Assembly (NCBI RefSeq): GCF_013315265.1
Contig: NZ_JABUFE010000006.1
Span: 1-64,000, forward strand
Reading direction: 5' to 3'
Source of the DNA: Parasulfitobacter algicola
GTDB lineage: Bacteria; Pseudomonadota; Alphaproteobacteria; Rhodobacterales; Rhodobacteraceae
DNA length: 64,000 bases
Made by a program: the position numbers and the translations under genes. This document shows positions 25,811 through 42,667 of this stretch, piece after piece. The notes under the pieces are model-generated. The model was given only the letters and a program-made list of their open reading frames with translations. It was not told where the DNA came from and searched no databases. Every line of letters starts with the position of its first letter. The first letter of the stretch is position 1.

Positions 25811-26464
25811 CTATTCGGGAATTGTCGCAGGTTGTGGATCTTCTTCATTTGCCTGATCCAGCGCGTCAAAGGCGGCTGTGAACCCGTTAAGGGAGACAGT
25901 CAAAACCACATTCTGATCCGGCGCAAGGGCAGGAACAATTCTGATCCGCGCTTGCCCGCCCCGTTTGAAGTTATTCACGTAATTCTCATCTACGCCGAAC
26001 TGCGCCAGACAACCAATTTCAGCGCATTGTCTGAAAGGATATCGGCGTGCGGTCCCACTGTCGATGGTCAGCGTAACTTGTTCGGTCAACAGCGTATCAA
26101 GGGGCGCTAGAAAGTTAACGGCGGCACGGGCAGGGCGCTGGTCTTCGGCTAATGGCAGAATGTTCAGCTCGGCCACGGGATTATCTTCGCTGTCCATCAA
26201 TAGCTGGTGCATTTCGCAACCATCCCGACCATCAGGCAGACGCGTGCACCGAATTTTCCAATCGCTGAATTCTTCGCGAATAAATCGTTGACCGGGGCGA
26301 ATTTCATTTGTGACATCTTCGCCCATCTCAAGCTGTGGGGCCTCAGTCGGTGCGGCTTCTTCTTGGGCTGGCGGCTCGGCCTCATTCGTGGTGTCTTGGG
26401 CAAAAACCGGTGCTGCGAGCCCAACTAAAGTCACGGCGCAAAACGTTTTTAAAATATCGGACAT
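25811..26464 (-). CDS. Invasion-associated locus B (IalB) family protein
   Basis: A 217-residue secreted protein with signal peptide MSDILKTFCAVTLVGLAAPVFA and an acidic, Pro/Glu-rich linker (about 24-50). The IalB domain follows: FIREEFSDWKIRC, GCEMHQLLM, the conserved RYPFRQCAEIGCLAQFG with two Cys, and VSLNGFTAAFDAL. In Bartonella IalB is linked to erythrocyte invasion, but in free-living alphaproteobacteria the role is unknown. A candidate small RNA ends about 110 bases upstream on the same strand. A TTGACG element (26537-26542 on the complement) may be part of its promoter. Confidence 0.9.
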   Translation of the reverse strand: MSDILKTFCAVTLVGLAAPVFAQDTTNEAEPPAQEEAAPTEAPQLEMGEDVTNEIRPGQRFIREEFSDWKIRCTRLPDGRDGCEMHQLLMDSEDNPVAELNILPLAEDQRPARAAVNFLAPLDTLLTEQVTLTIDSGTARRYPFRQCAEIGCLAQFGVDENYVNNFKRGGQARIRIVPALAPDQNVVLTVSLNGFTAAFDALDQANEEDPQPATIPE

Positions 26465-26572
26465 TGGTGATCCTGCTTGTTTTGATCTTTGACATCGTCG
26501 TTAACACGTCGATCTTACGGTGTCAGTCCCGTATGCCGTCAAACACAGCATAAAACCGCCGTGATTCATGGA

Positions 26573-26644
26573 AAAAAGGGTCCCCCCAAAGGAACCCTTT
26601 TTCAGACTAAAGTCTCTCCCCGTCGGACTGGCCGACTTCTTATT
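26573..26644 (-). ncRNA. Candidate small RNA with three hairpins
   Basis: On the minus strand a promoter-like pair, TTGACG (26679-26674) and TAGCGT (26656-26651), is spaced by 17 bases. It is followed by hairpin GTCGG-CCAGT-CCGAC (26636-26622), perfect small hairpin AGACT-TT-AGTCT (26615-26604) and a terminator hairpin (26602-26573, GGGTTCC pairing with GGACCC, one bulge) ending in T6. No ORF fits. The predicted RNA is about 70 nt. It may be a free sRNA or a terminated leader for ialB, and I assign no known family. Confidence 0.5.
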
Positions 26645-26866
26645 GAGGGTACGCTATGAAGTTTCATGATCTACGTCAATAACGATCTGTTCACGTTTTT
26701 GCATCGGAACAATTTTCTTTAAAACGTTAACGTATTGGGGTTCAAGTTATGATCAATGCATATTTTTTGACGCTGATTGATTACTGAATGTGCATCATGA
26801 CTGGTGCAAAAAACCGAAGCCCCCTATGGTGACCTTGGGGAATGTGGGTAACGAGAAAGGGCAGAC

Positions 26867-28408
26867 ATGGTTAATGATATTTTTATCGGTGGGGGTGGCG
26901 AAGGGTATACCGAACCGCAGGCACTGAAACTTAGCTATGCAAACCGTCATGGCCTTATCGCCGGGGCAACGGGAACTGGCAAAACGGTCACGCTTCAGAT
27001 TTTGGCGGAAAGCTTTTCCAACGCCGGCGTCCCTGTTTTTCTATCTGACGTGAAGGGCGATTTGTCTGGCCTTGCCAAGGCAGGTAGTGCTGATTTCAAG
27101 CTGCATGATGCCTTTACCAGTCGCGCGGAAAAAATTAGTTTTACCGATTACAACTATCAGGATTTCCCCGTCACATTTTGGGATCTGTTTGGCCAATCGG
27201 GTCATCCGGTCCGCACGACTGTCGCCGAAATGGGTCCGCTTCTGATATCACGTCTGCTTGAGCTATCCGAGGCGCAGGAAGGGGTTTTGAACATCGCGTT
27301 CCGTGTGGCTGATGAAGAAGGCATGCCGCTTTTGGATCTAAAAGATTTACAGGCGTTGTTGGTTTGGGTTGGTGAAAACGGCGGCGATCTTGGTTTACGT
27401 TATGGTAATGTATCCAAAGCGTCGATCGGGGCCATCCAGCGCCGGCTTCTGGTGCTGGAAAATCAAGGCGGGGCCAAGTTGTTTGGTGAACCTGCATTAG
27501 AACTGGCTGACATCATGATGACCAATGATCAGGGCAGGGGGCGGATTAACATTCTGGCCTCGGATCAGTTGATGGGTGCCCCGCGGCTTTATGCGACCTT
27601 CCTGTTGTGGCTGCTATCTGAACTGTTCGAAGAATTGCCCGAAGTAGGCGACCCCGATAAGCCCAAACTGGTGTTTTTCTTTGACGAAGCGCATTTGCTG
27701 TTCGAAGACGCCCCCAAAGCACTGGTTGATAAAGTCGAACAGGTCGCGCGGCTGATCCGGTCCAAGGGCGTTGGTGTCTATTTCATCACACAAAATCCGG
27801 CTGACGTGCCCGAAGATATTTTGGGCCAGCTTGGTAATCGGATCCAGCATGCCTTGCGCGCTTTTACTGCAAAAGACAAAAAGCAATTGCGCGCAGCCTC
27901 AGAAACCTATCGCGAAAATCCACGTTTCGACACCGAACAGGCGATCCGCGAGGTTGGCGTTGGCGAAGCTGTGACATCGATGTTGCAAAAAAAAGGCGTG
28001 CCCGGCTTAGTCGAACGTACGCTGATCCGCCCGCCATCTTCACAGCTTGGGCCGATTTCCGATCTTGAACGCAAGGGCGTGATTGCGATGTCGCCCATCG
28101 CAGGCAAATACGAGGCGCTGATAGATCGTGCCTCAGCCTTTGAGATGTTGAAAAAACGCGCCGAGGTCGCCGCGAAAGAAGCCGAAGCCGCCGAAGCCAA
28201 GGAAGAAGAACTGGCTGTGGCCGAACGCGAATATCGCGCCGCGCGCCGCTACTCCGGGACCAAAGTCAGCCGGTCCACATCGCGCCGGACACGTAAAACC
28301 GAAAGCTTCGGGGCCGCAATGACGGGCATGGTCATCAAAGAACTCAAAGGCACCACAGGTCGCCGTATCGTTCGCGGTATTCTGGGTGGGTTATTCAAGG
28401 GGCGTTGA
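26867..28408 (+). CDS. HerA/FtsK-like ATPase, YjgR (DUF853) family
   Basis: 513 residues. The Walker A GATGTGKT lies near residues 33-40 and the Walker B LVFFFDEAHLLF near 270, followed by the sensor-like FITQNPADVPEDILGQLGNRIQHALRAF. The C-terminus is a charged helical region rich in Ala/Glu/Arg, then a GTKVSRSTSRRTRK basic stretch. YjgR proteins are predicted helicase-like ATPases of unknown function. A metallo-hydrolase gene starts at its stop codon (TGATG), so the two are coupled. No nuclease gene (nurA) is adjacent, so this is not a classic HerA-NurA pair. Confidence 0.92.
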   Translation: MVNDIFIGGGGEGYTEPQALKLSYANRHGLIAGATGTGKTVTLQILAESFSNAGVPVFLSDVKGDLSGLAKAGSADFKLHDAFTSRAEKISFTDYNYQDFPVTFWDLFGQSGHPVRTTVAEMGPLLISRLLELSEAQEGVLNIAFRVADEEGMPLLDLKDLQALLVWVGENGGDLGLRYGNVSKASIGAIQRRLLVLENQGGAKLFGEPALELADIMMTNDQGRGRINILASDQLMGAPRLYATFLLWLLSELFEELPEVGDPDKPKLVFFFDEAHLLFEDAPKALVDKVEQVARLIRSKGVGVYFITQNPADVPEDILGQLGNRIQHALRAFTAKDKKQLRAASETYRENPRFDTEQAIREVGVGEAVTSMLQKKGVPGLVERTLIRPPSSQLGPISDLERKGVIAMSPIAGKYEALIDRASAFEMLKKRAEVAAKEAEAAEAKEEELAVAEREYRAARRYSGTKVSRSTSRRTRKTESFGAAMTGMVIKELKGTTGRRIVRGILGGLFKGR

Positions 28409-41488: not shown

Positions 41489-42574
41489 TTACGAAATACG
41501 GATGCGTGGGTTCAACACGACATAGCCAATATCTGAGATAAGCTGCGTGACCAGCACGATGAATACGGCAACCACCGACATGGCCAACAGCAGCTCGATA
41601 TCATTATTCGAAGCCGCAGCGACCAGAGTGAATCCGAAGCCGTTGTAATTAAAGATACTTTCCACAATCACAACGCCGGTCAGAAGCCATGGTATCTGCA
41701 ACATAATCACCGTAAACGGCGCAATCAGTGCATTTCTAAGGGCATGTTTGATCACGATATTGCGGAAACTGACGCCCTTTAGTCGCGCGGTGCGGATGTA
41801 TTGTGATGTCATCACCTCGGCCATCGATGCGCGGGTCATACGTGCAATATAACCCATCCCGTAAATCGCCATTGTCATAACCGGCAGGGTAAAGTTCGCA
41901 AATGTTGGCCCACTGTCATAAGCTGATCGGGCAGATGCCAAGAACAAGGTCCGATCTATTACCCCCCATTCCCTTAAGATTGGTGAAATTCCAGTAATAG
42001 ATGATGCAAAGAGTGCGATAAAGATAACGCCAGACACATATTCAGGTGTCGCCGTTGCGGCGATTGAGGCTGTCGATAAGGCCCTGTCTGTGCGTGATCC
42101 TTCGCGCATGCCAGCAAAAATGCCGATGATCAGCGCAGATGGGATCATGATGATCATGACCCAGAACATCAAAACGCCAGTGGCGCCCAGCCTTTTGGTC
42201 AAAACACTTGCAACATCATCCCGCGATGATCTGGAATATCCCCATTCTCCCTGCAGAACACCGCAATATCTGGGGGCATCTTCGGCAGATTGCGTGCGAT
42301 TGATACAATACCCCGTCACGCTGCCATCCGATTGGATTTTTGTCCAACCCGGTACGACGCCAAGCCATTGACCATATCTGATTGGCATCGGCTCAAGAAA
42401 GCCGCGTTCCCCAAGCCAGGTTGTGACCTGTTCATCAGTGATCCGCGATCCGGCTTCGGTTCGGGCAATCTTTTCCAGATTTGGACGCAGGTTGGTCAGT
42501 GCAAAGACGATCATCGTCATGCAAAGCGCAGTCAGTATCATGACGCCGATGCGGCGCAGGACGAACAGTATCAT
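41489..42574 (-). CDS. ABC transporter permease, DppB-type
   Basis: 361 residues. TM1 is MILFVLRRIGVMILTALCMTM, then a periplasmic loop with an insertion containing two Cys (GYCINRTQ ... PRYCGVLQ) that may form a disulfide. The C-terminal membrane domain has EAA loop TARLKGVSFRNIVIKHALRNALIAP. The start at 42574 gives the standard N-terminus with AGGGA upstream; 42604 would add ten polar residues. It is separated from the binding-protein gene by a hairpin (42668-42696), suggesting differential expression. Confidence 0.92.
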   Translation of the reverse strand: MILFVLRRIGVMILTALCMTMIVFALTNLRPNLEKIARTEAGSRITDEQVTTWLGERGFLEPMPIRYGQWLGVVPGWTKIQSDGSVTGYCINRTQSAEDAPRYCGVLQGEWGYSRSSRDDVASVLTKRLGATGVLMFWVMIIMIPSALIIGIFAGMREGSRTDRALSTASIAATATPEYVSGVIFIALFASSITGISPILREWGVIDRTLFLASARSAYDSGPTFANFTLPVMTMAIYGMGYIARMTRASMAEVMTSQYIRTARLKGVSFRNIVIKHALRNALIAPFTVIMLQIPWLLTGVVIVESIFNYNGFGFTLVAAASNNDIELLLAMSVVAVFIVLVTQLISDIGYVVLNPRIRIS

Positions 42575-42667
42575 CGCAATCCCTGTGTCTTCTGTATGTC
42601 CCAAGGCCCGCGGGTCTGGTCAAAATGGATGTAAAACATATTCAATTCAGCAAACATATCCTAAACG

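Follow-up and report, generated by a model that had tools for sequence, protein, structure and literature searches.

A small RNA (sRNA) gene conserved in the family Rhodobacteraceae lies, in our reading, immediately upstream of ialB in Parasulfitobacter algicola. The window, that is, the whole 64,000-nt stretch of DNA that was analysed, carries this unit between ialB and a divergent gene for a HerA-like ATPase. We give a probability of roughly 0.7 to the explanation in which the unit is an independent gene, its product would act in trans by base pairing, and its copy in genome G052, which we take to be R. sphaeroides 2.4.1, is very probably the sRNA UdsE. Judged by the comparative evidence, it is a genuine sRNA gene, probably already detected in one species.

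The P. algicola locus

The features of the locus are as follows.

26651-26679, minus strand: sRNA promoter P1, TTGACG (26679-26674), 17 nt, TAGCGT (26656-26651); read from the sequence
26572-26645, minus strand: small RNA of about 73 nt, with a putative 5' end and a 3' end in the T run; covariance model match
26616-26638, minus strand: near-invariant core AAGTCGGCCAGTCCGACGGGGAG (family consensus AAGTCGGCCAGTCCGACRGGGAG); from the sequence and the family loci
26622-26636, minus strand: hairpin 1, GTCGG (26636-26632) and CCGAC (26626-26622) around the 5-nt loop CCAGT
26615-26621, minus strand: GGGGAGA, a G-rich stretch 3' of hairpin 1 and putative contact site
26604-26615, minus strand: hairpin 2, AGACT (26615-26611) and AGTCT (26608-26604); present in the P. 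algicola copy, not a family feature
26572-26603, minus strand: intrinsic terminator of the sRNA, 14-bp stem, loop TTGG, T6; from the fold
26498-26526, minus strand: predicted ialB promoter motif P2, CTGACA, 17 nt, TAACGA; motif common to the family loci
25811-26464, minus strand: ialB, 217 aa, the next gene downstream on the same strand; Pfam IalB PF06776, E 2.2e-32
26867-28408, plus strand: HerA-like ATPase gene, divergent neighbour; Pfam HerA_C PF05872, E 1.7e-221

The original prediction had placed here, on the minus strand, a promoter of the form TTGACG-N17-TAGCGT, a GTCGG/CCGAC hairpin and a T6 terminator. Direct reading of the sequence from 26679 to 26572 confirms all three, and their coordinates are right. 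The 5' end of the sRNA would fall 6-7 nt after the -10 hexamer, near 26645/26644. In the P2 motif (26526-26498), a TG stands one base upstream of the second hexamer.

It had also been argued that three successive stems are unlikely to arise by chance, and this argument does not hold. A 90-nt minus-strand fold has a minimum free energy of -31.0, as against -27.1 for shuffled sequences (sd 3.4, z -1.15), and 20 of 200 shuffles fold as well; the plus strand gives z -0.23. In the 90-nt fold, the GGGG pairs with CCCU at 26649-26646, upstream of the putative sRNA 5' end. A full AGACT/AGTCT stem in hairpin 2 would leave a 2-nt loop, and the predicted fold has four pairs there. What does exceed chance is the conservation of the promoter, of the first hairpin with its GGGAG and of the terminator, not the folding energy, and it is through this conservation that the proposal of a candidate sRNA upstream of ialB is supported.

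Standard scans pass over the locus. A consensus promoter and terminator scan listed neither P1, because P1 has 8 of 12 consensus matches and the threshold was 9, nor the sRNA terminator, which was probably missed owing to the pairing of its T run into the stem. No family in Rfam release 15 reaches its gathering score at the P. algicola locus, where the best sub-threshold match is Atu_C8 (19.4 bits vs a cut-off of 50), and none matched in seven further family loci. Elsewhere in the window, Rfam Cis52_sRNA matches at 41734-41912 on the plus strand with 114.8 bits; this match lies antisense inside an ABC-permease-like open reading frame (41489-42604, minus strand) and may reflect coding conservation.

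Conservation within the Rhodobacteraceae

The conserved anatomy was described from a set of 218 loci, of which 203 hold the core and 181 are distinct; they were picked by the core or the covariance model, not by the promoter, and related species are counted more than once among them. Left out were a repeat of the window (L003), 22 duplicates, identical to others in the sequence around the core, two loci whose core did not fit the regular expression (L163, L191), and a group comprising weak out-of-family matches, StsR, unrelated sequences and a second R. sphaeroides stretch (L193-L200, L202, L206, L207, L218).

A promoter of the form TTGAC-N16-18-TANNNT is found upstream in all 181 loci, with a spacing of 17 nt in 177; when positions are drawn at random from these loci, 1 of 8601 fits the rule. 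It ends 11-17 nt before the TCGG of the core, and the P. algicola copy follows the TTGAC-N17-TANNNT rule. The P. algicola copy also carries the family core, AAGTCGGCC-N3/4-CCGACRGGGAG. From TCGG on, two spellings that differ only at R (G or A) account for 146 of the 181 loci, a conservation that is partly preselected since the loci were chosen by a looser form of the core. The RGGGAG after hairpin 1 is kept in the loci examined, and is likewise part of the selecting pattern. The sRNA has an estimated median length of 72 nt in the family, measured from 12 nt before TCGG to the end of the stem.

At the 3' end, 175 of the 181 loci pass the terminator rule, compared with 353 of 3620 random sequences. 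Five of the six failing loci look like terminators by eye; the sixth, L205 (around 1554), has the core and promoter and no clear terminator, and its genome, G300, has three model matches. In the alignment, all nine modelled pairs of the terminator stem show two-sided changes, and 96.6% of its cells are paired. The whole structure has 138 two-sided cells vs 32.6 in shuffles, and 97.8% of cells are paired vs at most 65.1% when it is slid along the alignment. These pair counts come from 98 matches in 96 hand-picked loci, including two weak extras in L059, and lean towards the model because the alignment was fitted to it. The second match in L059 (1361-1439) is weak on both strands, at 24.5 and 19.9 bits; it may be a copy that has diverged, or a terminator standing alone.

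Hairpin 1 is conserved in another manner: all of its counted cells are paired in the 98 aligned matches, its sequence hardly changes, and a single two-sided change is seen, at one pair. Such a sequence could be read as a DNA operator, GTCGG-N5-CCGAC, placed just after the promoter and having no role as RNA. The inverted repeat does lie close to the putative start site, but the pattern occurs at about background frequency (4 times in its own genome vs 9 for the reversed pattern; among 10 genomes, more often than the reversed pattern in four, less often in five and equally often in one), counts that bear on repeated sites and not on a single-site operator. In addition, the conservation around the repeat is asymmetric, with AAG before it and RGGGAG after it, and a covarying terminator follows. 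We regard an operator as highly improbable.

The second hairpin of the original prediction did not survive comparison. Hairpin 1 is conserved, whereas the 14 nt that follow GGGAG form a 4-bp hairpin in 2 of 181 loci, one of them that of P. algicola (54 of 3620 shuffles), so the description in terms of two hairpins should be recast as one conserved hairpin plus a terminator. In the same region, start codons lying 3-12 nt downstream of GGGAG are slightly commoner than expected (64 of 181 loci vs 25% in shuffles), a weak excess that leaves room for a leader peptide in some members.

The original prediction had named conservation in related genomes, alongside transcript data, as a check fixed beforehand, and the locus passed the conservation part. 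The covariance model (R1) was built from 31 loci, which match it by construction, with a structure taken from RNAalifold in which GGGG pairs with the 3' arm of the terminator, the terminators of that alignment being out of register. In a second model (R2), the terminator register was named from the same alignment; all genome counts rest on R1. At E<=0.01, 349 of 394 family genomes match; of the 347 that are more complete, 312 do; 335 of the 394 reach 1e-6, as counted from the covariance listing. The P. algicola copy, itself among the 31 model sequences, is matched at 26570-26651 on the minus strand with 70.4 bits (E 2.6e-23). Matches are found in 143 of 149 genomes in an order sample, all of them Rhodobacteraceae, and in 53 of 56 genomes of one large genus. 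A class sample of 289 genomes, whose listing mostly leaves out genomes with no match, yielded 50 matching genomes: five of the same family with at least 39.6 bits, and 45 from outside it with at most 24.8 bits and a best E of 8.8e-6. The out-of-family matches are taken as background.

Searches by sequence similarity point the same way within narrower limits. In a second genome of the genus, BLAST matches only the RNA body (26644-26573, query 57-128 of 141) at 82%. At E<=0.1, BLAST gives a match in 119 of 198 sampled family genomes, in most cases to the hairpin and GGGGAG. Named genomes scanned for exact matches gave at least 120 stretches, and each of the 80 stretches listed has one match. Among the matches listed, the titles are those of Rhodobacteraceae, Rhodobacterales or loosely labelled bins, plus one Maritalea mobilis. 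The model finds no match in 45 of the 394 family genomes, among them G102, a single contig with 100% completeness. Some absences are due to divergence, as in genus g24, where three members give weak matches and three others none; others, such as that of G102, may be real.

Relation to ialB

The family loci share the element order P1, sRNA, terminator, P2, ialB. Among loci with enough sequence around them to show the neighbours, 170 of 174 have ialB after the sRNA on the same strand, and 159 of 177 have the HerA gene upstream. The sRNA is kept with no ialB found beside it in four loci (L019, L083, L088 and L136), each with 500 nt of room or more. The median distance between the terminator and ialB is 134 nt (169 loci, with start codons chosen by rule; 5-95 percentile, 98-213). 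In 157 of 170 loci this gap contains the P2 motif, CTGACN-N16-18-TA with TG just upstream, compared with 14 of 3400 shuffles; the motif was defined after inspection of these gaps. A generic promoter rule applied to the same gaps does no better than chance (27 of 169 vs 14% in shuffles).

This layout bears on a choice that the original prediction left open, between a free sRNA and a premature-termination leader. In the leader reading, P1 would be the promoter of ialB, the hairpins would form an attenuator, and the short RNA that it releases would be either a by-product or an sRNA derived from the UTR. The constant presence of ialB downstream on the same strand favours this reading, as does the publication of UdsE as a 5'-UTR-derived sRNA, for which RT-PCR evidence of sRNA-mRNA cotranscripts is given in the accessible part of PMC8625941. 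An attenuator is less likely because of P2: in 157 of 170 loci ialB has a separate predicted promoter beyond the terminator, and the RNA would for this reason be better described as an independent sRNA gene. The comparative anatomy thus favours the free sRNA. An attenuator would be expected to offer a covarying competing fold; the sole alternative pairing found by RNAalifold, that of GGGG with the 3' terminator arm, comes from an alignment with its terminators out of register and has no two-sided change, as against the nine covarying pairs of the terminator stem. We consider a leader unlikely. At the same time, some read-through into ialB is likely, because cotranscripts of UdsE have been published, as far as the accessible text of PMC8625941 goes.

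Pairing in cis adds little. Between the core and the ialB leader, the predicted pairing is -26.2 kcal/mol (n 157), as against -27.0 (n 153) for sequence 300 nt further on, although 118 of 157 leaders fall below the mean of their own mononucleotide shuffles. Since it is no better than with the sequence 300 nt on, this pairing was not counted as evidence, and it speaks against the leader reading.

The probable R. sphaeroides copy and a possible mode of action

In G052, presumably R. sphaeroides 2.4.1 as noted above, the minus strand carries the copy at C4:1426530-1426609, flanked by ialB and a catalase gene. It shares its promoter, its core and the arrangement of hairpin and terminator with the P. 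algicola copy. Here the upstream neighbour of the sRNA is katE, the catalase gene, and not herA (L201, L218); beyond it is an open reading frame that reads by eye like a LysR-type regulator. In PMC3413700, katE is RSP_2779. From this number and the adjacency of the genes, ialB is probably RSP_2778, an assignment that rests on gene numbering, and the RNA is probably RSs2778. The G052 copy is therefore very probably RSs2778, which was renamed UdsE. The original report of it is said to be that of Berghoff in 2009.

What is described of UdsE in the accessible part of PMC8625941 agrees in several respects. The RNA lies in a 5' UTR with a transcription start site at its 5' end, and was probed on Northern blots of R. 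sphaeroides; the likeness to our sRNA consists in its position next to katE on the ialB side and its start at that site. Its 3' end is listed as 'unknown', and it is affected by RNase E and PNPase. In the same part of the text, the sRNA promoters other than those of udsA, udsC and udsH do not fit the RpoHI/HII consensus motifs, which is in keeping with a housekeeping-type P1. The difference is in the origin assigned: UdsE is published there as 5'-UTR-derived, whereas the family data point to a terminator of its own and a separate ialB promoter motif. In the literature searched, RSs2778 was found only in PMC8625941; ialB, an sRNA and Rhodobacter were not found together; and no description of the sRNA family was found, the searched literature lying mainly outside subscription journals.

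Other sRNAs were compared as well. StsR (RSs0827) of R. sphaeroides is similar in length (72 nt) and belongs to the same bacterial family, according to the accessible parts of PMC8307010 and PMC11354728, but it is a separate gene with another sequence, and in G052 the two lie about 568 kb apart. Identity with StsR was rejected: G052 holds the exact complement of the published StsR probe at that other place, and the P. algicola RNA lacks the probe sequence. Intergenic 60 and 134 of P. denitrificans (PMC5107571) and the sRNAs of R. pomeroyi (PMC4809877), as described in the accessible parts of those papers, were weighed as possible counterparts and were not linked to the family. The CcsR1-4 ('cuckoo') RNAs are likewise small RNAs of R. 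sphaeroides, whereas the core of the present family is G-rich. Their loop motif, which we take to be CCUCCUCCC, is absent from the P. algicola sRNA; from the sequences, a GGGAG:CUCCC contact between the family sRNA and the CcsR RNAs is imaginable.

As to mechanism, RNA polymerase with the housekeeping sigma factor would start at P1 and stop at the intrinsic terminator, giving a product of about 73 nt composed of the 5' hairpin, the GGGAG(A) stretch, an A-rich linker and the terminator. The loop CCAGU and RGGGAG would then pair in trans with C/U-rich sites carried by a second sRNA or by one or several mRNAs. We favour a trans-acting base-pairing RNA, since this would account for a hairpin that is almost frozen in sequence and not only in pairing. 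When 20 genomes were searched for the 12-mer antisense to GGGAG and a portion of the hairpin, 25 places turned up in 18 of the genomes; 11 of the 25 lie outside the sRNA itself, and no gene recurred.

That no mRNA target recurred in these 20 genomes would also suit an sRNA that binds a protein, or that titrates another sRNA as a decoy, with the frozen hairpin and GGGAG as the binding element. The near invariance of the hairpin, with hardly any compensatory change, goes beyond what pairing alone would need and fits such an element too. Against it, as well as against base pairing in trans, Hfq is not listed among the factors affecting UdsE in the accessible part of PMC8625941. We think this explanation rather unlikely, and keep to base pairing in trans as the preferred mode of action.

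As far as searched, the sRNA family, its near-invariant core and the tandem-promoter layout are new. The family has a defined promoter, core and terminator and is missing from Rfam. We know of few sRNAs that have kept both their sequence and their gene order throughout a whole bacterial family. Since the RNA probably matches one already detectable on blots in a species open to genetic work, experiments on its role could begin at once, and the comparison suggests that one published '5'-UTR-derived' sRNA, UdsE, may be better viewed as a gene of its own. More tentatively, and with the odds somewhat against it, the RNA may be a core regulatory RNA of all Rhodobacteraceae, with an element of about 20 nt frozen across hundreds of genera by contacts with many mRNAs, with a partner sRNA or with a dedicated protein. 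If so, an abundant marine and phototrophic group would possess a housekeeping regulator that sits permanently in front of ialB.
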